Assembly (NCBI RefSeq): GCF_034087045.1 | Contig: NZ_CP139247.1 | Coordinates: 4,118,001-4,182,000, forward strand | Direction of reading: 5' to 3' | Source of the DNA: Chitinophaga sancti | Lineage (GTDB): Bacteria > Bacteroidota > Bacteroidia > Chitinophagales > Chitinophagaceae | Length of the DNA stretch: 64,000 bases | Shown: one piece after another, positions 4,633 to 53,590 of the stretch | How the letters are laid out: every line of letters begins with the position of its first letter | How positions within the stretch are numbered: the first letter of the stretch is position 1 | Notes under the pieces: model-generated | The model's input: the letters and a program-made list of their open reading frames with translations, nothing else | Databases searched by the model: none | What the model was told of the DNA's origin: nothing | Translations under genes and position numbers: made by a program

Positions 4633-4900
4633 TTATTTTATGATAAACAATCCGCGTTTATATCCGCGGACCGGGCAATTTAAACCCCCGCCATTACAGC
4701 GGGTCGTTCATCCTGACTAACCACAACCCAAACATTATTTATGATAAACAATCCGCGCTCATATCCGCGGACCGGGTAATTTAACCCCGCCATTACAGCG
4801 GGTCGTTCATCCTGACTAACCACAACACCCCAAACATTATTTATGATAAACAATCCGCGATCATCCGCGGACCGGACAATTTTACCCCGCTGGTACAAGG
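4633..4900. repeat. Tandem array of about 101-bp units, including the 3' end of the OYE gene
   Basis: Three units. The anchor ATGATAAACAATCCGCG occurs at 4640, 4741 and 4843, giving periods of 101 and 102 bases. Units 1 and 2 are nearly identical and each carries an inverted CCCGC/GCGGG pair and a CCGCGG core. Unit 3 is partial and is also the last 50-odd bases and stop codon of the minus-strand OYE gene, so the array lies directly downstream of that gene. An apparent 72-residue minus-strand reading frame at 4680-4898 is only the repeat being translated. Confidence 0.9.
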
Positions 4901-5854
4901 TTGTTCAAATGCAACAAAATCCGCTAACCCACTCCGCAAAGTATCCTCTGCTTTCAGTGCATCGAAATTCCCATTTAGTATCAGCGGGCCATTAAACCTC
5001 GCCCTGATTCCTGCCAGCAGAATCGCTGGTATTTCCGGCTCTCCTGAACTATGCCCATCTACTATGTGTATATATGAAAGTGAAAACGTATCCAACGCAT
5101 CCACTAAGTATTCATAAGTCGCATTGATCTGCCCGTGATGTTGCAGGTCATTCACCTTACTATAAGGAGACAACCTGATACCTGTTCTGTCTTTTCCAAT
5201 CGCTGCACTCACCGCAGCCACCGTTTCAAGAATAAACCGTACCCTGTTCGGAATAGTCCCACCATACTTATCGGTACGCTGGTTCGTATCAGGATGAAGG
5301 AACTGCTCCATCAGGTATCCATTCGCCGCATGTAGTTCCACCCCATCAAACCCTGCTTCGATGGCCTGTTTCGCTGCCTTTACATGTAACTGCACCATCT
5401 CCTGCACTTCAGCTGTACTCATTGCCCTTGGCGTACCATAAGGTTGATAACCTGCCGCTGTCCAGATCTGCCCATTGGCAGCAATTGCCGAAGGTGCTAC
5501 GATCCTCGTTTTCGCAGGCATATTTGCAGGATGAGAGATCCTGCCCGTATGCATGATTTGCAGGAAGATCTTACCACCATTTGCATGCACGGCTTCCGTT
5601 ACCTTTTTCCAACCTGCTACCTGTGCTTTGCTATAAATGCCTGGCATATGTGCATGCCCCATTCCGCTTTCCACAGGACTGGTGCCCTCTGCTATAATCA
5701 ATCCGGCGCCTGCCCGATGGCTGTAATACTCCACCATCAGCTCATTTGGTACCCCATCACTGACACGGCGTTTGGTTACAGTCGGAGCCATTACGACTTT
5801 GTTAGAAAGGGCGTATTTGCCTATAGTTGCTTGTGTTAATAATGCTGGATACAT
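4841..5854 (-). CDS. Old Yellow Enzyme family NADH:flavin oxidoreductase with altered C-terminus
   Basis: FMN-dependent ene-reductase of the OYE/NemA family, cytoplasmic. The 337-residue protein shows the family landmarks: NKVVMAPTVTKRR near the N-terminus, IMHTGRISHP (about residue 100), ELHAANGYLMEQFLHP (about 175) and the phosphate-binding LNGNFD (about 293). Family members usually run about 355-370 residues and continue with a GRP.(I/L)ANPDL-type segment that completes the FMN phosphate site. Here the sequence after FVAFEQP changes to residues encoded by the repeat array and stops about 25-30 residues early, so activity is doubtful. It lies 36 bases downstream of a TetR gene on the same strand, with an operator-like palindrome at 5858-5871 just before the start. 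Confidence 0.85.
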   Translation of the reverse strand: MYPALLTQATIGKYALSNKVVMAPTVTKRRVSDGVPNELMVEYYSHRAGAGLIIAEGTSPVESGMGHAHMPGIYSKAQVAGWKKVTEAVHANGGKIFLQIMHTGRISHPANMPAKTRIVAPSAIAANGQIWTAAGYQPYGTPRAMSTAEVQEMVQLHVKAAKQAIEAGFDGVELHAANGYLMEQFLHPDTNQRTDKYGGTIPNRVRFILETVAAVSAAIGKDRTGIRLSPYSKVNDLQHHGQINATYEYLVDALDTFSLSYIHIVDGHSSGEPEIPAILLAGIRARFNGPLILNGNFDALKAEDTLRSGLADFVAFEQPCTSGVKLSGPRMIADCLS

Positions 5855-5857
5855 ATT

Positions 5858-5871
5858 AGAATGATCGTTCT
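5858..5871. promoter_or_regulatory. Candidate TetR operator upstream of the OYE gene
   Basis: AGAATGATCGTTCT is a near-perfect 14-base inverted repeat between the tetR stop and the OYE start. A close relative (AGAATGAATGTTCC) lies in the tetR promoter at 6486-6499. The shared sequence and placement make it the likely binding site of the adjacent TetR protein. Confidence 0.6.
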
Positions 5872-5890
5872 GGAAATGGTCAAAAATTTT

Positions 5891-6463
5891 TTACTTTCTA
5901 ATGCTACTTAAAATATGATCAGTCAACTGATCAACCAACTGTTTATCATTGAATAATACATCCATCATCCACAGTGAGCTAAAGCTGCTGTACAGGAAGC
6001 GGGCCATTACACCCGGGTCTTTATCCGCAGGAATTTCTCCCACCTGTTTTGCCTTTTCAAGCAGTTCCTGCAATACACAGATCAGTTCCAATGCCTGGTT
6101 CTTAACAAGATCTTTGATACCCTCGTCCATAGATGCCAGTTCAAAGGAAGTCTTTACCATCAGGCAGGTCTGGCCTTCTTTTCTGTTTGCAATGGCTTTT
6201 CGTACAATGTGTTCAACAGCGGCAACCGGGGAGCATACCTGGCAGCATTGTTTGTAATCTTTCAGCGCCTGTTTGGCATAGTTAGAAAGACATTGCTGGA
6301 ACAGCGCATGCTTGTCGCCATAAGTATCATATATAGAGGCCCTGTTCAGTTGCATGCCATCCACAAGGTCCTGCATAGAAGTCGCGTTGTACCCCTTTTG
6401 CCAAAAGAGGTCTCTTGCTTTTTCCAGCCTTTCTTCAGGATCGAATGCTTTGTTACGTGCCAT
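5891..6463 (-). CDS. TetR/AcrR family transcriptional regulator
   Basis: One-component repressor of 190 residues. The N-terminal helix-turn-helix is clear (FWQKGYNATSMQDLV...GMQLNRASIYDTYGDKHALF, about residues 19-55); the rest is a helical ligand-binding domain. It is transcribed toward the OYE gene, an arrangement known from NemR/NemA-type systems in which a TetR repressor senses electrophiles and controls an ene-reductase. Two Cys pairs around residues 70-80 (CCQVC) could sense thiol-reactive compounds, but this is inference. A near-leaderless promoter at 6471-6502 contains an operator copy, implying autoregulation. Confidence 0.88.
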   Translation of the reverse strand: MARNKAFDPEERLEKARDLFWQKGYNATSMQDLVDGMQLNRASIYDTYGDKHALFQQCLSNYAKQALKDYKQCCQVCSPVAAVEHIVRKAIANRKEGQTCLMVKTSFELASMDEGIKDLVKNQALELICVLQELLEKAKQVGEIPADKDPGVMARFLYSSFSSLWMMDVLFNDKQLVDQLTDHILSSIRK

Positions 6464-6470
6464 GATAGTG

Positions 6471-6502
6471 CAAAAATATAATTTCAGAATGAATGTTCCA
6501 AA
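6471..6502 (-). promoter_or_regulatory. tetR promoter with embedded operator
   Basis: Minus strand: -33 TTTG (6499-6502), 20-base spacer, -7 TATTTTTG followed by C (6471-6478), fitting the Bacteroidota TTTG/TAnnTTTG promoter. The spacer holds AGAATGAATGTTCC (6486-6499), related to the site at 5858. The -7 element ends only about 8 bases before the tetR ATG, so the leader is very short. Confidence 0.6.
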
Positions 6503-6794
6503 TAAAAATGACGAGGTTGTATATCATTTTGAATTTAGTCGGGCCGGCCGCAGGCCCATTCCGATCTTCGGGTAATTTTGATTTAAAAAATTGAAATTGA
6601 TACACTACCAAAGGCGACTGTTCCTTTTTTGTAGAAACACGTCTACAATTGTTTGAAAATCATTATAGTAGAGGTTGGATTATGAAAATCCGCTCCCAAC
6701 AAAGCATTGGAGTGGTAAATAGCAACTCGTGTCCGCAGTGGCCCCTTTTTTGCCTCTTCCCATGTTATAATTGTTGAACCTAAAAAAGTTAGAC
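6503..6794. other. Intergenic region between tetR and the DUF4142 gene
   Basis: No convincing gene. It holds a GC-rich inverted repeat GGGCC/GGCCC at 6541-6557 and a small hairpin TTGTAGA/TCTACAA at 6629-6648. An in-frame ATG at 6771 upstream of the DUF4142 lipoprotein start is not used in my call because it would put eight residues before the signal peptide. Confidence 0.5.
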
Positions 6795-7370
6795 ATGAAA
6801 AGACTAAGTTATGTAGCCGCCACGTTGATGACCGTTTGGATGTTACAATCCTGCGGTGGAGGAAACACAGGAGCAAAGCACGATGATGCTGTAGACAGCG
6901 CAAATGCGGTAAACAAAGAAGCAGCTCCGGTAGACCAGAATTCCTCTGAATTCGCTGTAAAAGCTGCCGATGCGGGAATGAAAGAAATCCAGCTTGGCAA
7001 GATTGCACAGGAAAAAGGTGTAAACCCTCAGGTAAAAGCTTTTGGCGAGCAGATGGTAGCAGACCACTCTAAAGCTGCTGATGAATTGAAAGCGATTGCA
7101 GCTTCCAAGAACATTACACTGCCTGATAGTGTAGGAGAAGATTATTCTAAGGATATTATGGATATCAGCAAGAAAACCGGTAGGGATTTCGACAAGGCTT
7201 ATGTAGATGAGATGGTAAAAGACCATAACGATGCAGTGGACCTGTTCCAGAAAGCAAGCAATGATGTAACTGATCCTGAGTTGAAAGCATTCGCTGCTAA
7301 GACACTGCCTACGCTGCAGGCGCATCAGGCGCATGTGAAGACGCTGGATAGTTTGCTGAAGAAAAAATAA
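6795..7370 (+). CDS. DUF4142 lipoprotein
   Basis: Exported lipoprotein of 191 residues. The chosen start gives a signal peptide ending in the lipobox MLQSC (Cys at about residue 20). The rest is a helical DUF4142 domain with SEFAVKAADAGMKEIQLGKIAQEKG (about residues 48-72) followed by a region dominated by Lys, Asp and Ala. The domain is ferritin-like in predicted fold and common in Bacteroidota and Proteobacteria; its biochemical role is not established. Stand-alone gene followed by a hairpin and T-run. Confidence 0.85.
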   Translation: MKRLSYVAATLMTVWMLQSCGGGNTGAKHDDAVDSANAVNKEAAPVDQNSSEFAVKAADAGMKEIQLGKIAQEKGVNPQVKAFGEQMVADHSKAADELKAIAASKNITLPDSVGEDYSKDIMDISKKTGRDFDKAYVDEMVKDHNDAVDLFQKASNDVTDPELKAFAAKTLPTLQAHQAHVKTLDSLLKKK

Positions 7371-16238: not shown

Positions 16239-16286
16239 GATTTAGGGAATTGTTTTTTGACCACCTGCCTGGTGTGTTTTTTTTTC

Positions 16287-16340
16287 TGAAAATGGTTTTC
16301 ATCCCCGTTGGTGAATAACCGCTTTTCATGAATGTTTTAT
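16287..16340. repeat. Dispersed intergenic repeat, copy A
   Basis: About 54 bases beginning TGAAAATGGTTTTCATCC and ending in TCATGAATGTTTTA. It matches 41418-41471 with roughly 85 percent identity by eye. Lies between prfB and pruA, inside an open frame upstream of pruA that I do not consider coding. Confidence 0.75.
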
Positions 16341-16480
16341 TTTGGCAGAATGGAATACATCCCCATCCGGCCCTAGGCCATTCAAACCCCGCGGGAAGTC
16401 CCGGTGTTGAAGACATCCGTGATTTGTCGCGCAAAGACACTAATTTTACTTATTATCGTTACAACAAAAACTCTTTGAGA

Positions 16481-18661: not shown

Positions 18662-18758
18662 ATAATTTATGATTAAGTTAACCGTATGCAAGATATACGT
18701 ATTTTTTGGCCCCCGGTATTTTCATATTCCTTATTTTTACCCCCTAAAACTGCATACT

Positions 18759-19286
18759 TTGAAGACCATACTGAGTGGTACACAAGTGGCCATCACTGTT
18801 GACAGACTCTGTCACCAGCTTATCGAAAATCATGGAGACTTCTCCAAAACTGCGCTGATCGGACTTCAGCCCAGAGGCATTTATCTGGCAGACAGAATCT
18901 ATAATACCCTGCAGAAGCTGCTGCCAGGCGTAAAAATCCAATATGGAAGAATTGACATCACCTTTTATCGTGATGACTTCAATAAAGGGAAAGCACTCCA
19001 TGTGCCTAACGAAACCGCTATCGATTTTTCAATTGAAAATAAGAAAGTAGTATTGATCGATGACGTGCTGTACACCGGCCGTACCACCCGCTCCGCACTG
19101 GATGCAATGCTGGATTTCGGCAGACCTTCTGAGGTGGAACTGCTTGTATTGATAGATCGCCGGTTTACCCGCGAACTACCTATTCAGGCTGACTATGTAG
19201 GGCGTACCATTGATGCGGTCAATTCGGAAATGGTGAAAGTGCGCTGGAAGGATCGTGACGGGCATGATGATGTTATTATTGAGTAG
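18759..19286 (+). CDS. pyrR: PyrR: pyrimidine regulator / uracil phosphoribosyltransferase
   Basis: Phosphoribosyltransferase-fold protein of 175 residues. It has the PRPP loop VVLIDDVLYTGRTTRSALDA (about 88-107) and PyrR-type motifs RGIYLADRI and LIDRRFTRELPIQADYVGR. In Bacillus PyrR binds pyr mRNA and causes attenuation; in other groups it may act mainly as a uracil phosphoribosyltransferase. The open frame begins at an ATG at 18669, but its first 30 residues are unlike any PyrR; a TTG at 18759 gives the usual MKTILSGTQV start. pyrB follows after 118 bases, supporting a pyrimidine role. Confidence 0.88.
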   Translation: MKTILSGTQVAITVDRLCHQLIENHGDFSKTALIGLQPRGIYLADRIYNTLQKLLPGVKIQYGRIDITFYRDDFNKGKALHVPNETAIDFSIENKKVVLIDDVLYTGRTTRSALDAMLDFGRPSEVELLVLIDRRFTRELPIQADYVGRTIDAVNSEMVKVRWKDRDGHDDVIIE

Positions 19287-26865: not shown

Positions 26866-27020
26866 GGCTATAGCAAAGCTTCGGTATAGTTTAGTTAAAA
26901 CTTTGGTCAAGCTCCGGGATAACTCCGGTTTAGTTTCGGTTAAGCTCTGGCATAACTCCGGCCAAGCTCCCGTCTAACTCCGGCATAACTCCGGTCTGGC
27001 TTCGGCATAGCTTCGATACA
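26866..27020. repeat. Degenerate short-period array
   Basis: About a dozen diverged copies of an 11-12 base motif of the kind AGCTCCGGNATA or AACTCCGGTNTA run from just after the DUF486 stop. The last copies form the left arm of the inverted repeat at 27001-27127. Confidence 0.75.
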
Positions 27021-27127
27021 ACTTCGTCACCAATCCAACATCAAAAGGGCACCTCAATATCCCCGGGATATACAAGTGCCCTTTTAGTGCCCTTATAGTA
27101 CCGAAGTTGTATCGAAGCTATACCGAA
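27001..27127. repeat. Nested inverted repeat (large hairpin)
   Basis: Outer arms of 26 bases at 27001-27026 and 27102-27127 are complementary at 25 of 26 positions. Inside them AAAAGGGCAC (27043-27052) pairs with GTGCCCTTTT (27076-27085), and ATATCCC/GGGATAT sits in the centre (27057-27071). It can fold as one long hairpin and lies just upstream of the PIG-L operon. Confidence 0.85.
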
Positions 27128-29893: not shown

Positions 29894-30010
29894 ATGAAAG
29901 AAGATAAACCGCCATTACTGCCGCAGTGGTGGCAGTGGTATTCTGTTGTAGTCGGCTGGCTGTTGCTGCTGATCGGCGCGTTTTATTTATTCACTAAAGT
30001 TTATTCATGA
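29894..30010 (+). CDS. Single-span membrane microprotein (38 residues)
   Basis: MKEDKPPLLPQWWQWYSVVV opens with an acidic/Pro stretch and a Trp-rich interface, then one membrane helix (about 17-34) ending FTKVYS. The TGA overlaps the symporter ATG (ATGA). Small Trp-rich partners encoded directly before solute symporters are known in other operons, so it may be an accessory subunit; that is inference. Confidence 0.65.
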   Translation: MKEDKPPLLPQWWQWYSVVVGWLLLLIGAFYLFTKVYS

Positions 30011-31686
30011 GTGTAGCGGATTGGATTGTACTGGGGGGTACATTAATCGGAATTATATTATACGGTATCTGGAAGAGCCGTGGCCAGAAAGATATGGCCA
30101 GCTACTTCCTGGATAACCAGTCTATGCCCTGGTACATCGTACTATTGTCGATCATCGGTACACAGGCGAGTGCCGTTACGTTTCTTTCTGCACCGGGTCA
30201 GGCGTATACTGACGGGATGCGGTTTGTACAATATTATTTTGGCTTGCCGCTGGCGATGGTGGTGATCTGTATTGCGTTTGTACCTATTTACCATAAGCTG
30301 AAAGTGTTCACGGCGTACGAATACCTGGAAGGCCGGTTTGACTGTAAGACCCGGACCTTTACGGCGATATTATTTCTCATACAACGTGCATTGTCTACGG
30401 GCATCAGTATTTATGCCCCGGCTATCATTCTCTCGTCTTTACTGGGCTGGAACATATACTGGACCAATGTGATCATGGGCGGACTCCTTATTATTTATAC
30501 GGTATCCGGGGGTACACGTGCGGTGAGTTATACGCAGACATTGCAACTGGTAATCATTTTTGTGGGGATGTTCCTGGCTGGTTATATGGTGGTTCATTTG
30601 TTGCCGGCGGGTGTTGGATTTAATGATGCGCTGAAGGTAGCGGGCAAGATGAATAAGCTGAATGTGATAGTGACTGATTTTGACTGGAAGGATAAATATA
30701 ACATATGGAGTGGGTTGATAGGAGGGTTCTTTTTAGCGCTCTCTTATTTTGGTACGGATCAGTCGCAGGTAGGCAGGTACCTGACTGCGCGGAGTGTGAC
30801 GGAATCCCGTCTTGGGTTGCTGATGAATGGGTTGGTGAAAGTGCCGATGCAGTTCCTGATCCTGTTATTAGGTTCGCTTGTATTTGTGTTTTACCTGTAT
30901 TTCAGGGCGCCGATATTTTTTAATGAGGCGCAGCTGAATAAGGTAGATGGGCCTACATTGCAGGTATTGCAAAGCCAATATGACGGATTTAATAAGATAA
31001 AGCAAGAGCAGGCAATAGCGCTTTCAAATGCGTTTCATAACAAGGACAATGCAGCCGTAGAAGTGGCCCGTCAAAAACTACAGGCCGCAGATGCAGATGC
31101 ATTCAAGGTACGTACTACCGCGATCGATTATATTAAAAAAGCAGATCCAGGAGCGGATACGAACGATACGAATTATATCTTCCTGGATTTCGTGGTACAC
31201 AATCTTCCGAAAGGCCTTGTGGGTTTGTTGATAGCCATTATATTCCTGGCTGCCTGGGGCAGTATTGCCGCGGCATTAAACTCCCTTGCCTCTACGACAG
31301 TGATCGATATTTACAAAAGACAGTTTAAACCAACAGCCCCGGACGAACATTACTTTAAAGCATCCCGGTGGTGGACGTTCATCTGGGGACTGTTTTGTAT
31401 AGTGGTAGCACAGTTTGCCAGCAAACTGGGTAGCCTGATAGAAGCGGTGAATGTACTGGGATCGCTGTTTTACGGCGTTATCCTTGGTATATTCCTTGTA
31501 GCGTTTTATTGTAAGCGGATCGGTGGTACGGCTGTATTCTGGGCGGCAATAGTGGCGGAGATCCTGGTGATCATCGTATTTATTACCAATATTGTATCAT
31601 TCCTGTGGCTCAATGCGATCGGGTGTATACTTGTGATCGTTCTGGCCTGGATAATACAATTATTGCAGCCTTCACATGACAAATAA
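30007..31686 (+). CDS. Sodium:solute symporter (SSS family)
   Basis: Inner-membrane transporter of 559 residues with about 13 membrane segments. Family marks include ASYFLDNQSMPWYIVLLSIIGTQASAVTF (about 28-57), YEYLEGRFDCKTR (about 101-113) and GTDQSQVGRYLTARS (about 244-258). A hydrophilic insert rich in Ala, Asp and Lys lies at about 305-385, larger than in many SSS members. Last gene of the PIG-L operon and translationally coupled to the microprotein before it. The likely substrate is a product of the deacetylase (amino sugar or related), but this is inference from context. Confidence 0.9.
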   Translation: MSVADWIVLGGTLIGIILYGIWKSRGQKDMASYFLDNQSMPWYIVLLSIIGTQASAVTFLSAPGQAYTDGMRFVQYYFGLPLAMVVICIAFVPIYHKLKVFTAYEYLEGRFDCKTRTFTAILFLIQRALSTGISIYAPAIILSSLLGWNIYWTNVIMGGLLIIYTVSGGTRAVSYTQTLQLVIIFVGMFLAGYMVVHLLPAGVGFNDALKVAGKMNKLNVIVTDFDWKDKYNIWSGLIGGFFLALSYFGTDQSQVGRYLTARSVTESRLGLLMNGLVKVPMQFLILLLGSLVFVFYLYFRAPIFFNEAQLNKVDGPTLQVLQSQYDGFNKIKQEQAIALSNAFHNKDNAAVEVARQKLQAADADAFKVRTTAIDYIKKADPGADTNDTNYIFLDFVVHNLPKGLVGLLIAIIFLAAWGSIAAALNSLASTTVIDIYKRQFKPTAPDEHYFKASRWWTFIWGLFCIVVAQFASKLGSLIEAVNVLGSLFYGVILGIFLVAFYCKRIGGTAVFWAAIVAEILVIIVFITNIVSFLWLNAIGCILVIVLAWIIQLLQPSHDK

Positions 31687-31910
31687 CAGCAGGCTCATTT
31701 TAAATGAATACAGCTTTTCACATGACAAAATTCAACCTGTTCTATCAGGTTTATTCTAATAAATGCAGCCGTTCACATGACTTGAAACAGCCTGTATACA
31801 ATCAGGTATATTCTGATGATTGAAACCTTTACATTACGAACAATAGCCTGATCTACCAGGCTTTTACTAAAGGATTGCAGTCTATTCTATCAGACCGTTT
31901 CTAAATGCAT
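31665..31910. repeat. Tandem array joining the 3' ends of the symporter and response-regulator genes
   Basis: The symporter end (TTCACATGAC at 31671) recurs at 31717, 31772 and, diverged, at 31828 (periods 46, 55, 56). Each unit continues with a CCTG..TATCAGG hairpin and TTTATTCTAATAAATGC, matching the minus-strand 3' end of the response regulator at 31882-31910 (CTATTCTATCAG..TTTCTAAATGC). The whole 195-base gap between these convergent genes is therefore repeat. Confidence 0.75.
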
Positions 31911-37049: not shown

Positions 37050-37077
37050 TCAAAACGTATTACTCAAAACGTATTAC
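37050..37077. repeat. Two 14-base tandem units directly after the xerD stop
   Basis: On the minus strand the xerD end TTTTGA (with stop TGA) is followed by GTAATACGTTTTGA twice (37064-37077 and 37050-37063). Each unit ends with a copy of the last codon-and-stop sequence. Confidence 0.85.
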
Positions 37078-37974
37078 TCAAAATCTTGGATGGAACCTTT
37101 GTAATGTATCTCTTAAATACTCTCTATCCAGATGCGTATAGATCTCCGTCGTAGTAATACTTTCATGCCCCAGCATTTCCTGCACTGCTCTTAGATCCGC
37201 CCCACCTTCTACCAGGTGCGTAGCAAATGAATGCCTGAATGTATGCGGTGACACCTGTTTCTCAATACCCGCCATTGCTGTCAACTCTTTTATCACTAAA
37301 AAGATCATCACACGGGTCAGTGCACTTCCTCTGCGATTTAAAAAAAGAATATCTTCCTGTCCGGGTTTACAAGGCATATGTACCCGCACTTCATCCTTAT
37401 ATATGTTGATGTACTTAATGGCATCTCTTCCGATAGGGATCAATCTTTCCTTATCTCCCTTACCAATAACCCGAATATACCCCGCATCAAAGTGTAACTG
37501 TGATATTTGTAAGCCAGTCACCTCGCTCACACGCAACCCGCAGCTGTACATGGTTTCCAGTATAGCACGGTTACGTGCACCTTCAGGTGTACCTGTTTTG
37601 ACCTGTGTAATGATGAGCTCTATTTCTTCAAAACTCAATACATCGGGAAGTTGTCGCTTTGTTTTTGGTGCTTCTAATAATTGAGTAGGATCCTGTTTGA
37701 CGATGTCTTCCAATAAGAGGTATTTATAAAAGGCTTTGATGCCGGAGATGATACGTGCCTGTGAGGTGGCTGTCATACCCAGTGTAGCGATCCACTGTAC
37801 ACAGGATTGTAAGTGTGTGAGTTCAACCTGATGGGGTGGGAGGGGGAGATTGGCGGACTGCAGGTATTGCACCAGTTTCTCTACATCACGAAGATAGGCT
37901 TCAATAGAGTTGCCGGAGAGGGAACGTTCGAGTTGTAAATAAGCCTTAAATCCTTTCAGATAGATATCCCACAT
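37078..37974 (-). CDS. xerD: Site-specific tyrosine recombinase XerD
   Basis: Resolves chromosome dimers at dif together with XerC. The 298-residue protein has an N-terminal SAM-like DNA-binding domain (about 1-90) and a catalytic domain with the tyrosine-recombinase set: Arg in SCGLRVSEV (about 147), HTFRHSFATHL (about 242-252), LGHESITTTEIYTH (about 267-280, nucleophile Tyr 278). Length is typical of XerC/XerD rather than of an integrase; no mobile element is adjacent. Calling XerD rather than XerC is by general similarity. Confidence 0.88.
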   Translation of the reverse strand: MWDIYLKGFKAYLQLERSLSGNSIEAYLRDVEKLVQYLQSANLPLPPHQVELTHLQSCVQWIATLGMTATSQARIISGIKAFYKYLLLEDIVKQDPTQLLEAPKTKRQLPDVLSFEEIELIITQVKTGTPEGARNRAILETMYSCGLRVSEVTGLQISQLHFDAGYIRVIGKGDKERLIPIGRDAIKYINIYKDEVRVHMPCKPGQEDILFLNRRGSALTRVMIFLVIKELTAMAGIEKQVSPHTFRHSFATHLVEGGADLRAVQEMLGHESITTTEIYTHLDREYLRDTLQRFHPRF

Positions 37975-39757: not shown

Positions 39758-40633
39758 ATGAAAAAGAACAATCAGTTGTTAGTTGCAGCATTAGGCCTGT
39801 TAATGGCCAGCTGCGGTGCCGGCGGTCAAAAAAAGACGCCCGGTGGCGTAGATTATATCGTTCATAAATCAGGTAGCGGTGCGCAGCTTAAAGTGGGTGA
39901 CACTGTGCTGATGAACATATACCAGAAGCTGAATGATTCCCTCCTGGCTAAATCTGCTGATAGAAGCAATGGTGCGCCAGTTCCTGTACTGATCCAGAAG
40001 TCTCAGCAGAAATGGGACCTGATGGACGGTCTGGCTTCTCTGAAAGAAGGTGATAGCGCTACTTTTGCTATTCCTGTAGATTCCCTGCCTCAGCCACGTC
40101 CTCCTTTTGCTAAGAAAGGTGACAAGCTGAACGTTACTTTCGTAGTAGTGAGCAAATATTCTGCTGCTAAACAACTGGCGGAAGATCAGAAACTGATCAA
40201 GGAATATACTGCTAAAAACAACCTGCAGGTTACTCCTACAGCTGAAGGTGTGTATGTAGCTACCCAGGTAGCTGGTGGTGGCGAACAGCCTCAGCCAGGT
40301 GATACCGTTGTGGTAAACTACACTGGTAAACTGCTGAATGGTAAAGTTTTCGATTCTTCTGTTGATTCTACAATCAACCCAGGTAGAAAACTGGAACCTA
40401 TCCGTTTCCCAATTGGTAAAGGGTATGTAATTAAAGGTTGGGATGCTGGTATCGCTTCTCTGAAAAAAGGTTCAAAAGCTATCCTGATCCTGCCTTCTGG
40501 TCTGGGTTATGGTTTACAGCCTACTCCGATGATCCCTTCTAACTCCGTACTGGTGTTTGATGTGGAACTGCTGGATATCAAGAAACCAACTGCTGCGCCT
40601 GCGGTTCCGGCTGCACCAGCTAAGAAGAAATAG
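39758..40633 (+). CDS. FKBP-type peptidyl-prolyl isomerase lipoprotein
   Basis: Exported folding factor of 291 residues. Signal peptide with lipobox LMASC (Cys about 19). Two tandem FKBP-like domains: a degenerate one (about 35-135, with KVGDTVLMNIYQKLND) and a canonical one (about 160-275) with GDTVVVNYTGKLLNGKVFDSS, FPIGKGYVIKGWDAGIASLKKG and ILPSGLGYG. The tail is Ala/Pro-rich ending in Lys. Probably works on periplasmic or outer-membrane proteins. Downstream of nrnA and closed by a strong terminator. Confidence 0.92.
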   Translation: MKKNNQLLVAALGLLMASCGAGGQKKTPGGVDYIVHKSGSGAQLKVGDTVLMNIYQKLNDSLLAKSADRSNGAPVPVLIQKSQQKWDLMDGLASLKEGDSATFAIPVDSLPQPRPPFAKKGDKLNVTFVVVSKYSAAKQLAEDQKLIKEYTAKNNLQVTPTAEGVYVATQVAGGGEQPQPGDTVVVNYTGKLLNGKVFDSSVDSTINPGRKLEPIRFPIGKGYVIKGWDAGIASLKKGSKAILILPSGLGYGLQPTPMIPSNSVLVFDVELLDIKKPTAAPAVPAAPAKKK

Positions 40634-40654
40634 TAATTAGCTTCTTATAGAAAA

Positions 40655-40700
40655 AAAAAGACGAGGCCGTATCTTAAGTAAGATACGGCCTCGTCTTTTT
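40655..40700 (+). terminator. Terminator of the nrnA-FKBP operon
   Basis: Perfect stem of 22 pairs including GACGAGGCCGTATCTTA with a two-base loop, ending in five T. Confidence 0.9.
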
Positions 40701-40838
40701 CGGGTACCTAATGGAAATAGGTTGCCCTTTATGCACTTCTGAGGAGGTTTATTTATTTTTGATACACGCTCGTTTTTTATTACAATCTGTTGCCGTTATC
40801 CTTGCGTTGTGCTGATGTGTGTAGTGCAGCTTTTGCCT

Positions 40839-40846
40839 TACTTTTG
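40839..40846 (+). promoter_or_regulatory. -7 element of the VOC protein gene
   Basis: TACTTTTG followed by T, 34 bases before the ATG at 40881. It lies inside the longer open frame, arguing for the later start. Confidence 0.45.
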
Positions 40847-40880
40847 TCTACCTCTTCCTTATCAACTAAAAATGAAAATC

Positions 40881-41370: not shown

Positions 41371-41418
41371 AACGAACCAAAGAGGCTGCTCCTTTTGGAA
41401 CAGCCTCTTTGGTTCGTT
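41371..41418 (+). terminator. Long hairpin after the VOC gene
   Basis: Twenty-two-base arms beginning AACGAACCAAAGAGGCTG with one mismatch, loop TTTT. No T-run follows; it abuts the dispersed repeat at 41418. Confidence 0.7.
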
Positions 41419-41496
41419 GAAAATGGGTTTCATCCACGTTGATGAATCACCGCTATCATGAATGTTTTTATTGAAAATGGGTTTTATTCCCGTTAT
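41418..41496. repeat. Dispersed intergenic repeat, copy B plus partial copy
   Basis: 41418-41471 matches 16287-16340. A further partial unit (TGAAAATGGGTTTTATTCCCG, at 41473-41493) follows and reaches the stop codon of cdaA on the minus strand. Confidence 0.75.
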
Positions 41497-43385: not shown

Positions 43386-44474
43386 ATGAAATTTCTCCTT
43401 AACCTATTAAGAATCATTGTAGGGGTGTTGTTCATCTTCTCCGGTCTGATCAAAGCGAACGATCCGCTGGGCCTGAGTTATAAAATGGACGAGTTTTTTG
43501 AAGTATTGCACCTGGGCTTTATGTCGCACTACTCGCTGGTATACTCAGTGGCCATGAATACATTTGAAATTGTGTGTGGCGTGGCGATATTAATCGGGTA
43601 TAGAATGCGGCTGTTTTCGTGGCTTATATTGCTGCTTATTGCGTTCTTTACGTTCCTCACGGCGTATGCGCTGTTTAGCGGTACAGTGCGCGAGTGTGGT
43701 TGTTTTGGGGATTGTATCAAGTTGTCTCCGGCAGAAACTTTCTGGAAAGATGTGGCTTTGCTGGTGATGATTCTTGTCATCTTCCTGTATAGAAATAAGA
43801 TCGGACCATTGTTCGGTACAAAGGTCAATGGGGCGTTGATGCTGTTGTCACTGGTCTTTTCATTAGGTGTTCAGTGGTATACGCTGGCGCATTTGCCAGT
43901 GGTGGATTGCCTTGGATATAAGGTGGGTAATAATATTCCTGAGAAGATGAAATTGCCGCCGGGTTCACATCCGGATGTATTTGAGACGGTGCTGATCTAT
44001 AAAAAGGATGGTAAGGAGAAGGAGTTTACGACAGAGGATTTCCCATGGAATGACAGTACCTGGGTATATGTAGACAGAAAGGACAAATTGGTAAAGGAAG
44101 GGGATGGTGAGCCACCGATCAAGGATTTTATACTCACAGATTTTGATGGGGGGAACCAGACGGAGGCGATTTTGTCTGAGGCCATGCCGGTGTATTTGTT
44201 CCTGGTGAAGGATGTGAATGAGGCAGGAAAAGGCTGGGATGAGAAAATACATGCGTTGCAACAGCAACAGGCGCAGGGTAAATGTTATATTTATGGAGTA
44301 ACAGCTTCTACGAAGGATCAGGTGGATGGTTTTGTGAAGGCCCATGGGTTGCAGTTCCAGTTTTTGAATATGGATGGAACGGCGATCAAGACGGCAGGTA
44401 GGTCAAATCCTTGTTTGATCCTTTTGGAAAAAGGGACGATTAAGGGGAAGTGGCATTATCATGATATTCCGTAA
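43386..44474 (+). CDS. DoxX/MauE-like membrane protein (BT_3928 family)
   Basis: Protein of 362 residues. The N-terminal 150 residues are a four-helix DoxX/MauE-like membrane domain (NLLRIIVGVLFIFSGLIKANDPLG, about 5-28; TAYALFSGTVRECGCFGDCIKLSP, with paired Cys, about 96-119), a fifth helix lies at about 142-160, and the rest is extracytoplasmic with a thioredoxin-like feel (FLVKDVNEAGKGWDEKI; YGVTASTKDQVDGFVKAHGLQF). CGCFGDC resembles the redox Cys of MauE/VKOR-like proteins, so a role in disulfide chemistry is possible but unproven. Its last 50-odd bases recur in decayed form downstream. Confidence 0.8.
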   Translation: MKFLLNLLRIIVGVLFIFSGLIKANDPLGLSYKMDEFFEVLHLGFMSHYSLVYSVAMNTFEIVCGVAILIGYRMRLFSWLILLLIAFFTFLTAYALFSGTVRECGCFGDCIKLSPAETFWKDVALLVMILVIFLYRNKIGPLFGTKVNGALMLLSLVFSLGVQWYTLAHLPVVDCLGYKVGNNIPEKMKLPPGSHPDVFETVLIYKKDGKEKEFTTEDFPWNDSTWVYVDRKDKLVKEGDGEPPIKDFILTDFDGGNQTEAILSEAMPVYLFLVKDVNEAGKGWDEKIHALQQQQAQGKCYIYGVTASTKDQVDGFVKAHGLQFQFLNMDGTAIKTAGRSNPCLILLEKGTIKGKWHYHDIP

Positions 44475-44520
44475 AGAGAGTGATTGTTCTTTCCTGAAAA
44501 GGATGTAAGCCTGCGGGATA

Positions 44521-44575
44521 TTTGATATTGCCGGAGAAAGGGTCGGTTAAAGGAATGTGGAGGTATTGCCATTTG
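44521..44575 (+). repeat. Decayed copy of the BT_3928-like gene 3' end
   Basis: 44521-44570 aligns with 44414-44460 inside the gene end: shared TTTGAT, GGA.AAAGGG.CG.TTAA, GTGG and TAT blocks, about 70 percent identity by eye, period about 107. The first codons of an overlong reading frame into the next gene come from this copy. Confidence 0.65.
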
Positions 44576-47114: not shown

Positions 47115-47636
47115 ATGAAACGGTTATGTTTATTGCTGTTGCTAATAACAGCAGGTACGGGTCTTTTTGCCCAACAAGTAAGTGTGATCGACCGCTTTTT
47201 TCAAAAGTATGAAAACGACCAGAGCTTTACCCTGGTCAGCGTCACACCTAAAATGTTCTCCATGTTCAGCAAATTTGATATCAATTCTGCTGAAGGAAAA
47301 AGCTTCATGACGATCGTCAAAAAGCTCAAAGGACTGAGAATCCTTGTAAAAGAAAACGCCAAAGAAGGAAGTAAACTTTACCAGGAAGCGGCTTCCATGC
47401 TCACGAAAGAGTATGAAGAATTAATGACTGTACGTAGTGACGGAGAGCTTGTAAAATTCATGGTAAAAGAAAACACTAAGGGGAATATTGCGGAATTAGT
47501 CATGCTAGTGGGTGGCAAGGATGAATTCGTTGCAATGAGTCTCTTAGGTGATATCGACCTGAACGAAATCAGCCAGATTGCCAATGATGTGAATATTGAT
47601 GGTATGGATAAGCTGAAAGCGTTGAATAAAAAGTAA
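47115..47636 (+). CDS. DUF4252 protein, copy 1
   Basis: Exported protein of 173 residues with a signal peptide (about 1-19, ending GLFAQQ) and the DUF4252 fold: FFQKYENDQSFTLVSVTPKMFSMF (about 26-50), a KLKGLRILV strand and a C-terminal IDLNEISQIANDVNIDGMDKLKAL. DUF4252 proteins are common in Bacteroidota and typically follow an ECF sigma/anti-sigma pair, as here; molecular role unknown. A promoter-like match to the sigma promoter lies just upstream. The last bases of the gene are the source of the array that follows. Confidence 0.87.
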   Translation: MKRLCLLLLLITAGTGLFAQQVSVIDRFFQKYENDQSFTLVSVTPKMFSMFSKFDINSAEGKSFMTIVKKLKGLRILVKENAKEGSKLYQEAASMLTKEYEELMTVRSDGELVKFMVKENTKGNIAELVMLVGGKDEFVAMSLLGDIDLNEISQIANDVNIDGMDKLKALNKK

Positions 47637-47880
47637 GTATTAAACAGGAAAAGTGCGCGGCAACGAAGTGCAGAAAATGAAGTGCTCCGTAACGAAAAGC
47701 ACCGAATGAGAAAGTGCTCCGTAACGAAAAGCACTGAATGAGATGGTGTTCAATAGCTAAAGCACAGAATGAGAAAGTGCTCCGTAACGAAAGCACTAAA
47801 AAGAGAAGGTGTTCAATAGCTAAAGCACAGAATGAGAAAGTGTTTAGAAACGAAAAAGCACTGAGTTAAAAAAAACATTT
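47616..47880 (+). repeat. Tandem array of 29-33-base units derived from the DUF4252 gene 3' end
   Basis: About seven units after the gene of the form GTGCTCCGTAACGAAAAGCAC plus GAATGAGAAA, with variants GTGTTCAATAGCTAAAGCAC. The block AAAGCNNTGAATNANAAAGT matches the last 20 bases of the DUF4252 gene (47616-47635). Each unit holds a small GTGCT/AGCAC inverted pair. Confidence 0.8.
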
Positions 47881-47912: not shown

Positions 47913-48443
47913 ATGAAACATTGCCTTGTATTATCAATCGTATGCTGCTTATTGCTGGGTACAAGTACTACACACGCACAGGATCGCCTGCTCACACAAT
48001 TTTACAATGCCCATAGAGGCGTAGCCCTGACTTTAAAAATGGGTATTGGCAGATTGCCACTTCGCATAGTACGAGGCTTTATTCCAAATGAGGAGGGTGA
48101 AGACGGCGTAAATGCAAAGAAACTTTTCTCAAAGATCCGCAAGATGAAGGTCTATATCATGCAGGGATATGACGGGCCTATTCCGGGCAGTGACCTGACC
48201 AACCTGAAACAAAAGCTGATCGACAAAGAAAACTTTGATTTACTGATGGAAGTAAGGGATCATGGAAATATTGTGCATGTACTGAATAAAGGGACGGAGG
48301 AAAACCTGGGGAATGTGGTGTTGTTAATTCAGGATGAGAAAGATATGATCATGGTGCATTTACATACCAGCTTGCGTTTTGAGGATATCAATGGGTTGAT
48401 TAAGGAGTTTAATAAGAAGCCAAAGGCAATGGCTAGTTTATAG
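47913..48443 (+). CDS. DUF4252 protein, copy 2
   Basis: Second DUF4252 gene, 176 residues, with signal peptide (about 1-22, ending TTHAQD). It shares the fold with copy 1: LLTQFYNAHRGVALTLKMGIGRLPLRIV (about 25-52), KIRKMKVYIMQG and the C-terminal FEDINGLIKEFNKK. Identity with copy 1 is low, so the duplication is old, unlike the repeat between them. Probably controlled by the ECF sigma factor upstream; no ECF-like promoter is visible directly before it, so it may be read through from copy 1. Confidence 0.85.
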   Translation: MKHCLVLSIVCCLLLGTSTTHAQDRLLTQFYNAHRGVALTLKMGIGRLPLRIVRGFIPNEEGEDGVNAKKLFSKIRKMKVYIMQGYDGPIPGSDLTNLKQKLIDKENFDLLMEVRDHGNIVHVLNKGTEENLGNVVLLIQDEKDMIMVHLHTSLRFEDINGLIKEFNKKPKAMASL

Positions 48444-48515
48444 TCCACAACCGGTAGAGGGCATTAGCTGCAGCTAATGTTTTCGCCGTTTAAAGATGAT
48501 GGTAAATCAGAAAAA

Positions 48516-48680
48516 AAATGACCCTAACGGATCATCACATTGTTTGCCAGAGATTCGCTCAGGAACTTATACAAGAAAAAAAAATGATCCTAACGGATCA
48601 TCACTTTCTTAACCATGGATTCGCTCATGACAATTCATCCTTACCGGATCACCACCTCCCTCACGACCTGCTCACCCAGC
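48516..48680. repeat. Tandem array containing the 3' end of the DciA-like gene
   Basis: TAACGGATCATCAC occurs at 48525-48538 and 48591-48604; the gene-end version TACCGGATCACCAC is at 48642-48655. Units also share GATTCGCTCA (48552, 48618). Spacing 66 and 51. The array lies downstream of the minus-strand stop at 48641. Confidence 0.75.
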
Positions 48681-48928
48681 ATCTCATTCACCAACTTAAT
48701 AATCTTATCTTTTGAATAGGAGAGTTCCTGCTTCAATGGCGCTACACTGGTAGAGATCAACAACTTCCCATCTATCAGCTGAATACTTTCGGTATACCTG
48801 GAGATCGTCTTACCCATAATTTGTTCCCAGTTCTCCCTGATCCGTACTTCTGTAAGCCGTGGTTTCATCCGGCTTTTGTCCATAAAATCTCTGAGGGCAT
48901 CTCCCATTGTCGTAATACCGTAGCGCAT
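48641..48928 (-). CDS. DciA-like (DUF721) protein
   Basis: Small basic protein of 95 residues of the DUF721 family, whose members include the DnaB loader DciA. It has TMGDALRDFMDKSRMKPRLTEVRIRENWEQIMG (about 7-40), the domain core, then TSVAPLKQELSYSKDKIIKLVNEMLGE. It sits 16 bases downstream of recF on the same strand, a neighbourhood often seen for DUF721 genes. Replication role is inferred from the family; the Bacteroidota member is shorter than experimentally studied DciA. The last codons belong to a repeat unit. Confidence 0.82.
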   Translation of the reverse strand: MRYGITTMGDALRDFMDKSRMKPRLTEVRIRENWEQIMGKTISRYTESIQLIDGKLLISTSVAPLKQELSYSKDKIIKLVNEMLGEQVVREVVIR

Positions 48929-51160: not shown

Positions 51161-51172
51161 GTGATATTTAAT

Positions 51173-51228: not shown

Positions 51229-51235
51229 ATATTTG
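51228..51235 (+). promoter_or_regulatory. -7 element upstream of the TPR gene
   Basis: TATATTTG followed by C directly after the pdhA terminator; 67 bases before the ATG at 51303. Confidence 0.5.
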
Positions 51236-51302
51236 CGGGAATATGGCAATCAGGCCGTACCTGTACCCTAACAAGAAATACTTTTAAACGATCACATTTA
51301 CA

Positions 51303-52004
51303 ATGACCGAAACAAAAAATAAGGCCGCTGAAACTGCTCCTGTAACCAAGGACTTCGACTTGCAAGGCTCTGTACACAAGGCTGAAGATTTCTATTACAA
51401 GAACAAGAACGTCATCAACATCGCCGTAATCGTTATCCTGGTGGTGATAGGCGGTACTTTTGCCTACAACAGGTTCATTAAAGCACCGAACGAGAAGAAA
51501 GCAGCGGACATGGTATTCCACGCACAGAAAGCTTTTGAAAAGGATTCATTTAACCTGGCCCTGAACGGAGACGGTAACAACGACGGCTTCTTACAGGTCA
51601 TTAAAAAATATGGCAGTACCAAAACTGGTCAACTGTCAAAATACTATGCTGGCATTTGCTATGTAAGAACAGGCAAATTCCAGGAAGGTATCGATATGCT
51701 GAAAGATTTCAATGCAGGTGATCAACTGGTACAGGCTATGGCTTATGGCGTAACCGGTGATGCTTACATGGAACTGAAGAATACTGAAGAAGGTATCAAA
51801 TACTACAAAAAAGCTGGTCAGTACAGCGACAACGATTTTACCGGTCCAACTTACCTGTTTCGTGCAGGTGTAGCCCTGGAACTGGCTGGTAAAAACGATG
51901 AAGCGATCTCCATCTACAAAGAGATCCGCGAAAAATATCCTCAGTCAAACGAAGGTCGCGAGATGGATAAATATCTGGCGAGACTGGGTGTAGTTAGAGA
52001 ATAA
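51303..52004 (+). CDS. Membrane-anchored tetratricopeptide-repeat protein (YfgM-like)
   Basis: Protein of 233 residues with an N-terminal cytoplasmic tail, one membrane helix (NVINIAVIVILVVIGGTFAYNRF, about 38-60) and a periplasmic helical part with two or three TPR-like repeats (LSKYYAGICYVRTGKFQEGIDML, about 104-126; AYGVTGDAYMELKNTEEGIKYYKKA; LFRAGVALELAGKNDEAISIYKEI). The architecture resembles YfgM, an ancillary chaperone of the secretion system; function here is inferred. Precedes ribH by 63 bases and may be in an operon with it. Confidence 0.82.
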   Translation: MTETKNKAAETAPVTKDFDLQGSVHKAEDFYYKNKNVINIAVIVILVVIGGTFAYNRFIKAPNEKKAADMVFHAQKAFEKDSFNLALNGDGNNDGFLQVIKKYGSTKTGQLSKYYAGICYVRTGKFQEGIDMLKDFNAGDQLVQAMAYGVTGDAYMELKNTEEGIKYYKKAGQYSDNDFTGPTYLFRAGVALELAGKNDEAISIYKEIREKYPQSNEGREMDKYLARLGVVRE

Positions 52005-52067
52005 TTTCGGAAGAGGAGGATGCAACATTGAATGGTGTATTCTTACTCCCGGTAGAATATATTCAAC

Positions 52068-52571
52068 ATGTCAATACATAATCAAAGTTTATTGGACGAT
52101 ACTGGCATTCTCGGAATAGAGGATGCCAGTGTTGTTATAGTGTATACCGAATGGAATGATACTGTCATCAATGAGTTGGTGGCTGGCTGTGATAAGACAC
52201 TTGCCGGATATAATGTATCTAAAATTGCTAAAGTAAAAGTACCGGGGGCATTTGAACTGCCTTTCGCTGCGAAACAATATTGGGAGCATACCCAGCGCAC
52301 AGGTGCTCAGCCTGGCGCTATTATTGCATTTGGTTGTGTGATCCGTGGAGAAACGCCACATTTCGATTACGTTTGTAAAGGGGTGACGGAAGGATTGATG
52401 CAGCTGAACCTGGAATTGCCTGTACCTGTTATCTTCGGGATTTTGACGGTGGATAACATGGAGCAGGCGACGGACAGATTGGGTGGTAAACACGGACATA
52501 AAGGTGAAGAGGCTGCGCTGACTGCATTGAAGATGATCAGTATGATGCGGAAGTTGCAGCAGGGTAAGTAA
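52068..52571 (+). CDS. ribH: 6,7-dimethyl-8-ribityllumazine synthase
   Basis: Penultimate step of riboflavin synthesis: joins the pyrimidine intermediate with dihydroxybutanone phosphate. The 167-residue protein shows VPGAFELPFAAKQ (about 59-71), CVIRGETPHFDYVCKG (about 90-105, catalytic His within) and PVIFGILTVDNMEQATDR (about 119-136). Length is normal. No FMN riboswitch is visible upstream. Its last 30 bases before the final codons are repeated exactly 135 bases downstream. Confidence 0.95.
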   Translation: MSIHNQSLLDDTGILGIEDASVVIVYTEWNDTVINELVAGCDKTLAGYNVSKIAKVKVPGAFELPFAAKQYWEHTQRTGAQPGAIIAFGCVIRGETPHFDYVCKGVTEGLMQLNLELPVPVIFGILTVDNMEQATDRLGGKHGHKGEEAALTALKMISMMRKLQQGK

Positions 52572-52697
52572 GGCTTTGGTGGCCAGACTTGCGGTTGGGT
52601 GAATGACCGGCATGATATAAAAGATGTAAAGAGGATGTAAATTTCCTGGTGCCTGGGGACAGGTGTAATGATCAGTATGATGCGGAAGTTGCAGCAG
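52533..52697 (+). repeat. Exact 30-base copy of the ribH 3' end
   Basis: ATGATCAGTATGATGCGGAA and the next ten bases occur at 52533-52562 (inside ribH) and 52668-52697 (intergenic) with no mismatch seen. Separation is 135 bases; the DNA between is non-coding. Confidence 0.9.
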
Positions 52698-52756
52698 ACA
52701 ATTTAAATTTTCAAGTAGCTAGCAGGTTATATATGCTACACATAAAGACTAACTCG

Positions 52757-53476
52757 ATGAACGTTCAGCTTTTTATCCCCTGCTTTGTAGATCAGTTATT
52801 TCCCGAAACAGCCTTCAATATGGTCAAAGTATTGGAGAAACTGGGTTGTAACGTCAGTTACAATGCAAACCAAACCTGCTGTGGGCAACCTGCTTTTAAT
52901 GCAGGGTATTGGGATGAGGCGAGAGCTGTGGCGACCAAGTTTGTAAAGGATTTTCACACTTTTGACTACATCGTGGCACCCAGTGGCTCCTGCACTGGGT
53001 TTGTACGCAATTACTATGGGAAGCTGTTCGACAATTCTGCCGCTCACAATGATGTAAAACTGTTGCGCAAGCAGCTGTATGAATTTACAGAATTTCTGAC
53101 GGAGGTACTGCATGTAACTGATTTAGGCGCTACGCTGAATGGGCTGGCTACCTATCATGATTCCTGTGCAGCGCTGAGGGAATGTCATATCAAACAGGGG
53201 CCAAGAAATCTCCTGAGTAAGGTGAAGGGACTGGAACTGACGGAGATGAATGATTGTGAGACCTGTTGTGGTTTTGGAGGTACTTTTGCCGTAAAATACG
53301 AACCTATTTCGATTGGAATGGGTGAGCAGAAGGTACACAATGCAATAGCTACAGGGGCGGAATACCTGATATCTACGGATCTTTCCTGCCTGATGCACCT
53401 GGATGGGTATATCAAAAAACATAACCTGAATATTAAGACCATGCATATTGCCGATGTATTGGCGAGTGGCTGGTAA
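52757..53476 (+). CDS. LutA/YkgE-like CCG-domain oxidoreductase subunit
   Basis: Protein of 239 residues with two cysteine-rich CCG domains: NQTCCGQPAFNAG (about 40-52) and CETCCGFGGTFAVKYE (about 168-183), with partner motifs APSGSC and YHDSCAALRE. It matches LutA/YkgE, a subunit of the lactate-utilisation (LutABC) complex, part of the heterodisulfide-reductase-like family. LutB and LutC are not adjacent. The open frame extends 36 codons upstream, but that part is made of the ribH duplicate; MNVQLFIPCFVDQL is the family-like start. Confidence 0.88.
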   Translation: MNVQLFIPCFVDQLFPETAFNMVKVLEKLGCNVSYNANQTCCGQPAFNAGYWDEARAVATKFVKDFHTFDYIVAPSGSCTGFVRNYYGKLFDNSAAHNDVKLLRKQLYEFTEFLTEVLHVTDLGATLNGLATYHDSCAALRECHIKQGPRNLLSKVKGLELTEMNDCETCCGFGGTFAVKYEPISIGMGEQKVHNAIATGAEYLISTDLSCLMHLDGYIKKHNLNIKTMHIADVLASGW

Positions 53477-53590
53477 AAGGATATGAACTGATAGCTAAAT
53501 CCTGCCAACGTACTGGCAAGTGATTGGTAACTCAGTATCCATGACTTGAATATTAATACCGTGCTTACTGCTGATGTAGTGGCTGGTAAT
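53420..53590 (+). repeat. Decayed tandem copies of the LutA-like gene 3' end
   Basis: The gene end TTGGCGAGTGGCTGGTAA (53459-53476) recurs as CTGGCAAGTGATTGGTAA (53513-53530) and, shortened, as GTGGCTGGTAA (to 53589). The last unit also carries CATGACTTGAATATTAATACC, matching the CATAACCTGAATATTAAGACC of the gene. Periods are 54 and 59. Confidence 0.8.

Follow-up and report, generated by a model that had tools for sequence, protein, structure and literature searches.

The window, a 64,000-nucleotide stretch of the Chitinophaga sancti genome, contains eight loci at which the first-pass annotation reported that the last bases of a gene are repeated just downstream of it. No Rfam family matched at gathering scores in the window, and no tRNA or tmRNA was found there. 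We compared each putative copy with 17,114 random pairings of gene ends and downstream sequences, and a gene-end origin held at five of the eight loci. The match was clear at three of them (0/17,114 random pairings each). At 4633–4900, the last 67 nt (4841–4907; score 41) of the minus-strand gene 4841–5854 are followed by two downstream copies of gene end plus spacer with a period of ~101 bp (4628–4809, minus strand). At 52533–52697, a 30-nt segment close to the 3′ end of the plus-strand gene 52068–52571 (52533–52562) recurs as an exact copy 96 nt beyond the stop (52668–52697, plus strand), and this copy is diverged in loci L042 and L043 (C. silvisoli). At 53420–53590, the 3′ part of the plus-strand gene 52757–53476 (53366–53463; score 33) has a diverged downstream copy on the same strand (53488–53583), which was found in L042, was weaker in L043 and was absent in L044 and L045.

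Two further loci are decayed yet above chance. The end of the plus-strand gene 43386–44474 (44414–44453) has a decayed copy at 44521–44560 (score 18; 6/17,114) within the reported locus 44414–44575, and the gap after this gene is 121 bp in C. sancti versus 3–5 bp in eight outgroup loci. At 31665–31910, the end of the plus-strand gene 30007–31686 (31639–31680) is followed by a decayed copy (31739–31781; score 17; 18/17,114), with weaker copies to ~31910 that were seen by eye only. At the remaining three loci the repeats are real but a gene-end origin could not be demonstrated. A perfect 14-bp tandem repeat of 2.4 copies (37050–37083, minus strand; annotated as 37050–37084) overlaps the last 6 nt of the minus-strand gene 37078–37974, with a gene-end score of 14 (221/17,114). 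The locus at 47616–47880 is an intergenic minisatellite with a period of 32/63 bp (47680–47861, plus strand) lying 3′ of gene 47115–47636, and its gene-end match is at chance level (score 12; 1454/17,114). The one at 48516–48680 is a 66-bp direct repeat (48511–48630, minus strand) downstream of the minus-strand gene 48641–48928, with a weak match (score 11; 3404/17,114).

The copies lie on the coding strand and adjoin the gene, as would be expected if they were remains of longer genes whose C-terminal coding repeats had been severed by an early stop. However, the genes corresponding to those ending at 52571 and 53476 stop at or close to the same codon in the outgroups L044 and L045, where the gaps are shorter and lack a gene-end copy, and the repeat units include non-coding spacer. 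We therefore regard severed genes as a very improbable source.

To extend the comparison, we sampled 1.26 Mb (15%) of the C. sancti genome (8.32 Mb). The last 120 nt of each gene were locally aligned with the next 400 nt at a threshold score of ≥18, with the random pairings as null. Genes were called with a purpose-made dicodon caller (coding fraction ~0.81), which misses genes and places starts approximately; genes shorter than 450 nt or within 400 nt of the end of a stretch were left out of the 3′ and 5′ tests. Adjacent downstream DNA was matched by 22/719 gene ends, compared with 1/719 gene starts matching upstream DNA, 4–6/682 internal positions and 6/17,114 random pairings. The first-pass annotation had proposed such a genome-wide comparison, holding that equal repeat frequencies at 5′ flanks or in random sequence would speak against it; the 3′ excess is strong.

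The arrays are built of head-to-tail units, each consisting of the tail of the gene and spacer and mostly measuring some 20–140 bp. At L004, the ends of two convergent genes lie inside one 100-bp unit. Where gaps are short (L026, and L178 and L189 in the relative G014 described below), the unit comprises the end of one gene and the start of the next. The earlier assertion that copies always begin at the gene end was too strong, since in C. sancti the array starts 3–27 nt beyond the stop at 12 of the 40 array-bearing 3′ ends, and at two loci or more the C-terminal ends of the genes are not the same in C. sancti and G014. With gaps above 1500 bp excluded, here and in the count of gap events below, C. 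sancti arrays were found in 16/134 convergent, 41/576 co-directional and 2/124 divergent gaps.

Several known systems place repeats behind genes. Bacterial minisatellites or VNTRs consist of head-to-tail units of tens of base pairs that diverge unequally and vary in copy number between close relatives. The C. sancti arrays resemble them in all of these respects: the repeats are head to tail with units of roughly 10–100 bp, divergence is unequal, and copy number differs between C. sancti and G014. They differ in that dozens of mostly unrelated units are involved, many overlapping or abutting stops, with a concentration in one lineage. The MIRU-type repeats of mycobacteria are tandem units of ~40–100 bp at gene junctions, some overlapping stops, but they form one dispersed homologous family, whereas each array here derives from local sequence, often the tail of the adjacent gene. 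REP/BIME elements, associated with RAYT transposases, are likewise repeats behind genes in intergenic DNA; most C. sancti arrays, in contrast, share no sequence.

A repeat family, mobile or dispersed, that had inserted itself behind genes is ruled out for most arrays and scarcely credible as a general explanation; the first-pass annotation had counted one dispersed family occurring away from gene ends among the findings that would undo its proposal. A ~55-bp dispersed element does occur behind terminators in the same clade and explains a few arrays. However, no match elsewhere in the 1.26-Mb sample was obtained for 70 of the 86 non-genic arrays; of the remaining 16, 10 have their listed matches within the same 20-kb stretch. 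In addition, the units contain the tail of the very gene that they follow, and Y1 transposase (PF01797) gave no match in either C. sancti or G014. A gene-end-restoring integrative element, with an integrase beside a duplicated gene end and one displaced copy, is unlikely because the arrays are multi-copy and short.

The relative G014 has ~95% identity to C. sancti; both genomes are complete, and they are not strains of one population. In a first set of G014 stretches (L172–L191), 13/206 gene ends scored, a value that is biased upward because these stretches were picked around array-bearing C. sancti stretches. The second set (L254–L273) was picked by expected synteny to ten C. sancti stretches and not by arrays, and gave 5/209 3′ ends versus 1/209 5′ ends. 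Among 46 other loci (one syntenic region per genome, mostly Chitinophaga, including some MAGs and one record under another genus name), 1/643 gene ends scored. Gene-end arrays thus belong to one Chitinophaga lineage and are seldom seen in the broader set of relatives that were sampled. Only for C. sancti and G014 is the strong form established, since the related members G065 (1/67) and G046 (1/74) and the outgroup G057 (1/30) show one case each; L042 (2/16) probably also carries it.

The arrays also turn over between the two genomes. At 167 orthologous 3′ ends, a repeat was common to both in four cases, restricted to C. sancti in three and restricted to G014 in three. Of 729 genes, 159 could be aligned between the genomes; for these we found 18 indels of ≥9 bp in 20.7 kb just downstream, 8 in 22.7 kb upstream and 3 in 192 kb of gene interiors. 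None of the interior indels was a simple tandem duplication, in agreement with the earlier remark that internal gene duplication is lacking. Simple adjacent tandem insertions made up 5 of 138 gap events, most gap changes being compound. At 4633–4900, the region measures 412 bp in G014 versus 267 bp in C. sancti. This turnover, together with the asymmetry between 3′ and 5′ ends, bears out the suggestion of a continuing local duplication focused on 3′ ends.

Building on the observed 3′ excess, unit anatomy, lineage restriction and turnover, and on the stop focus and terminator shortage described below, we favour, at slightly less than an even chance, local tandem duplication seeded in transcribed, untranslated DNA past stops, with selection as a filter. 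Stretches of mostly some 20–140 bp spanning or just past stops would duplicate head to tail, repeatedly, and then expand, diverge and get lost as minisatellites do. The process would begin with ordinary slippage or with illegitimate recombination in a zone that is still being transcribed after the ribosomes have left. This zone would lie past the stop of genes whose transcripts are not ended by a hairpin terminator, and R-loops or unterminated transcription may provide the route. Duplications at stops would persist because a stop-spanning tandem duplication keeps the upstream gene intact, and those in genes or promoters would be removed.

It is possible, if doubtful, that selection alone is at work: short tandem duplications would arise everywhere at a raised rate in the lineage, those in genes and promoters would be purged, and stop-spanning duplications would stay. 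That stop-spanning units leave the gene whole fits this explanation, as do the distribution of indels over downstream, upstream and interior DNA and the units that join a gene end to the next start in short gaps. Moreover, co-directional arrays overlap the stop in equal shares in C. sancti (14/49) and at control loci (4/14), which counts against seeding past stops, as does the finding that divergent gaps were not spared (4/44) in array-rich G014 stretches. Overlap with the start was seen in 2/49 versus 3/14 co-directional arrays, of which the total number differs too.

However, selection alone predicts deep intergenic arrays to be as frequent as gene-end arrays. Under random placement with the 100 nt upstream of starts barred (gaps above 2500 bp excluded), 9 C. 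sancti arrays occupied divergent gaps or DNA distant from stops, against an expectation of 33.9, and 37 of 60 lay at or ≤30 nt from a stop where 18.2 were expected, although genes or promoters hidden in deep intergenic DNA could lower its tolerance. Arrays of other Chitinophaga fitted this null (near a stop, 7/20 versus 7.8; far, 8 versus 9.1), and the excess over them is mostly stop-proximal. The ratio of near to far arrays was 43:11 in C. sancti and G014 together and 7:8 elsewhere (P=0.02, Fisher test), a contrast that rests on a control of 20 arrays and fades with gaps ≤400 bp (P=0.08). The stop-proximal excess beyond promoter avoidance in C. sancti is strong against the null and modest against the control genomes. 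A further point against selection alone is that repeats within genes show no increase (23 in 1.264 Mb versus 22 in 0.935 Mb).

A shortage of terminators, also not predicted by selection alone, was found with a crude terminator finder in gaps of up to 1000 bp. At gaps of ≥100 bp, intrinsic terminators followed 3/38 array ends versus 108/300 other ends in C. sancti (P=0.00035) and 4/22 versus 89/215 in G014 (P=0.04). Part of the association stems from the scarcity of terminators in short co-directional gaps, but its direction was the same in several strata (co-directional gaps of 100–200 bp, 0/13 versus 21/86; convergent gaps of 40–100 bp, 0/5 versus 29/69). The first-pass annotation had suggested a mechanism acting near stops together with selection; placement and terminators favour a mechanistic component, neither being final.

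Arrays at ends without intrinsic terminators might instead be useful spacers, favoured for lengthening or insulating the 3′ untranslated region, for example as Rho loading zones. The five window gaps checked are all longer in C. sancti than in C. silvisoli, and three are longer than every mapped further outgroup locus; the gap at 48443 is shorter than in two of three such loci, and none was mapped for the gap at 47636. Nevertheless, the array sequence is not conserved and arrays come and go, and array gaps are richer in G than in C (C/(C+G)=0.46), a composition unlike that of Rho sites. We consider useful spacers improbable.

For the favoured seeding past stops, slippage or illegitimate recombination is likely the underlying chemistry, but we know of no genome-wide focus of such short tandem duplication on gene 3′ ends. 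Among the papers listed by literature searches for the pattern and its parts, no title or abstract opening described it. A bolder version, which we judge unlikely, is that the lineage acquired an activity duplicating DNA specifically where translation ends but transcription continues, so that own-tail minisatellites lengthen gaps and sometimes rewrite C-termini. No duplicating factor came to light, which counts against the favoured seeding: loss of RecJ, MutS or the large subunit of ExoVII (XseA) was not seen, each being present in 10/10 genomes checked. A burst of reverse transcriptases was rejected: RVT_1 matches numbered 9 in C. sancti, 18 in G014, 12 in G065, 4 in G046 and 11 in G007, and their number is not diagnostic because G007 has 0/85 gene ends scoring ≥18. 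Excerpts of PMC6379681 describe enrichment of gyrase cleavage over ~2–5 kb downstream of active transcription units, a zone too broad for a 30-nt focus, and we rejected this candidate as well. Excerpts of PMC9352719 on R-loops do not mention stop codons; the R-loop step is one that we infer.

The origin of bacterial minisatellites and of new intergenic DNA is rarely caught in the act. In C. sancti and G014, arrays are gained and lost at gene ends, and outgroups retain shorter gaps without copies. A 3′ focus of mechanistic origin would tie spontaneous tandem duplication to the place where ribosomes leave the transcript, which is directly testable. It would also offer a route for change of gene tails and C-termini.

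The genome that holds the window (G000) is a single contig of 8,320,843 bp. A conserved protein from the window found its best matches in [Flexibacter] sp. ATCC 35208 (98 %) and Chitinophaga silvisoli (97 %), and was about 90 % identical or less to many further Chitinophaga. The nearest complete genome among those compared, G014 (8.67 Mb), was ~95 % identical to G000 across most aligned DNA (pieces ranged from 83 to 97 %). At a 2.4-kb test locus, identity to G000 was 98 % in G014, 92 % in G046, 91 % in G065 and at most ~80 % in eight further genomes.

Genes were called with a dicodon model, and the terminal 120 nt of every gene were aligned to the 400 nt that follow. Across the window and 40 other stretches of G000, a local alignment score of ≥18 was reached at 17/485 gene ends, compared with 1/485 gene starts, 5/456 internal positions and none of 485 random or 485 reverse-complement pairings. 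The 3′ excess stood against the 5′-flank control in the enlarged sample (window plus 60 stretches, 1.264 Mb; 22/719 ends versus 1/719 starts), in which four or six of 682 internal positions scored, depending on the random draw; a larger random-pairing null gave 6/17,114. The first-pass annotation had read eight loci of the window as duplicated gene ends. Three of these are certain and two are decayed yet above chance, whereas the other three, genuine local repeats all the same, lack a demonstrable gene-end origin.

As plain sequence objects the arrays are minisatellites. A single dispersed family was considered as an alternative, but most arrays belong to no dispersed repeat family, and, unlike in RAYT systems, no RAYT-type transposase was matched. 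Narrow search terms in open-licence literature returned no description of a genome-wide minisatellite burst at gene 3′ ends, which is weak evidence that none exists.

The excess was concentrated around G000. In G014, 13/206 gene ends scored ≥18 in stretches picked around array regions and 5/209 in stretches not so picked. The counts were 2/16 in [Flexibacter] sp. ATCC 35208 (L042), 0/17 in C. silvisoli (L043), 1/67 in G065, 1/74 in G046, 0/32 in G062 and 1/30 in G057, with none in G007 (0/85), G008 (0/67) or G001 (0/40). Forty-six control loci, mostly Chitinophaga, gave 1/643 ends and 2/643 starts. A further 32 loci, whose titles place them in other Chitinophagales or among unplaced Bacteroidetes (the name of another phylum's family appears on one record), gave 0/365 for both. 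Searches for individual candidate genes found no lineage-specific cause.

Sixteen examples showed a common anatomy: ~18–77 nt of gene tail, stop codon included, together with a spacer (1–61 nt in clear arrays), repeated head to tail. Tail and spacer measured 77+23 nt in L004, 58+5 in L037, 41+21 in L026 and 18+1 in L027. Tandem duplication across the stop codon would produce such a gene-plus-spacer unit; it would also explain why arrays run away from the gene, occur on both strands and are each unique, and why the gene survives. A 100-bp unit in L004 contains both ends of a convergent gene pair, as a single tandem duplication across their overlapping 3′ ends would leave it. Lone displaced copies also occur, such as a 30-bp copy 96 nt beyond the stop at 52571. 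Divergence among copies runs from exact to barely alignable, as first claimed. In G000 the 30-bp copy at 52668–52697 matches the gene end exactly, but it is diverged in L042 and L043, which suggests that an older copy was overwritten by the gene end (conversion).

Arrays occupied 16/134 convergent, 41/576 co-directional and 2/124 divergent gaps sampled in G000; one divergent gap holds an array of 11/33-bp units (26876–27026). In co-directional gaps of G000, 39/49 arrays lay nearer the upstream stop and 9/49 nearer the downstream start; 14/49 overlapped the stop and 2/49 the start. The control loci gave 8/14 and 6/14 for proximity, and 4/14 and 3/14 for overlap. The two sets thus have an equal share overlapping a stop and differ in array numbers, starts and distance.

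To test whether promoter avoidance suffices, we reduced every array to a single unit, which was placed at random, permitting overlap with gene ends and barring the 100 nt upstream of starts. In G000, 37/60 arrays overlapped a stop or fell no more than 30 nt from one (18.2 expected), and 9/60 were distant from stops or sat in divergent gaps (33.9 expected). The G014 stretches not picked for arrays gave 6/10 (expected 3.0) and 2/10 (expected 5.7), and other Chitinophaga 7/20 (expected 7.8) and 8/20 (expected 9.1). The near:far ratio was 43:11 in G000 plus the unpicked G014 set versus 7:8 in the controls (Fisher P=0.02; restricting gaps to ≤600 bp gave P=0.005, and to ≤400 bp P=0.08). Removing whole arrays gave densities of 1.68/kb within 50 nt of stops versus 0.10/kb deep in gaps, but this cruder estimate over-collapses, so the one-unit collapse is preferred.

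Array-bearing ends also carried fewer terminator-like hairpins when only gaps ≥100 bp were considered: 3/38 versus 108/300 other ends in G000 (P=0.00035) and 4/22 versus 89/215 in G014 with array-rich stretches included (P=0.04). The control loci, with too few array-bearing ends for a comparison, gave 0/4 versus 92/338 (P=0.58).

Gene interiors held three indels ≥9 bp in 192 kb, so selection surely removes duplications inside genes. Selection alone, however, does not readily account for the spared deep intergenic DNA, the mostly stop-proximal lineage excess or the avoidance of hairpin-terminator ends. Because of these three patterns, we lean towards duplication starting in transcribed yet untranslated DNA, with an R-loop or unterminated transcription as a conceivable trigger.

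Among 167 orthologous gene ends, arrays were present in both G000 and G014 at four, in G000 only at three and in G014 only at three. Gap length had shifted by ≥10 bp in 33/121 co-directional, 13/24 convergent and 3/23 divergent gaps. Two cases are clear: behind the gene at 18669–19286, tandem gene-end copies in G014 face a single one in G000; at L039 4573, the gap measures 34 bp in G000, whereas in G014 it measures 187 bp and contains diverged copies of the gene end. Exact collapse of an old array would mimic birth in the other genome, so the direction of single cases is not fixed. For the window, outgroups are informative: behind 44474, G000 and L042 have a gap of 121 bp, L043 one of 15 bp and eight outgroup loci one of 3–5 bp; the gap behind 53476 is 131 bp in G000 versus 79 bp in L043 and 23–36 bp in 16 others.

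The G014 counterpart of 59600–59708 has ~140 bp of repeat-containing DNA ahead of the terminator and a different C-terminal gene end; from this difference, array growth may alter protein C-termini. Dense related arrays over several gaps and small genes at L037 6320–7732 differ in G014, and the counterpart of 40633–40872 in G014:C1 has a 235-bp gap insertion that matches only itself within the sample.

The data show two ways in which 3′ flanks of this clade acquire sequence, as separate observations: through arrays and through a dispersed ~55-bp element directly behind intrinsic terminators. A T-rich stretch lies just upstream in 40/45 profile matches from the sampled stretches, and 34/39 known neighbouring genes read toward the element. 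Several of the 45 matches sit in tandem, so that the T run ahead of them is part of the preceding copy. The element was found in 5/60 genus genomes (G000, G014, G065, G046 and, by a single 21-bp match, G003); copy numbers are lower bounds, only some candidates having been scored. A Y1 transposase had no match in G000 or G014. The ~55-bp element resembles a small insertion element targeted to terminators: at 16280–16341 and 41417–41494, and in L214–L233, it follows the terminator T tract in one orientation, sometimes in tandem.
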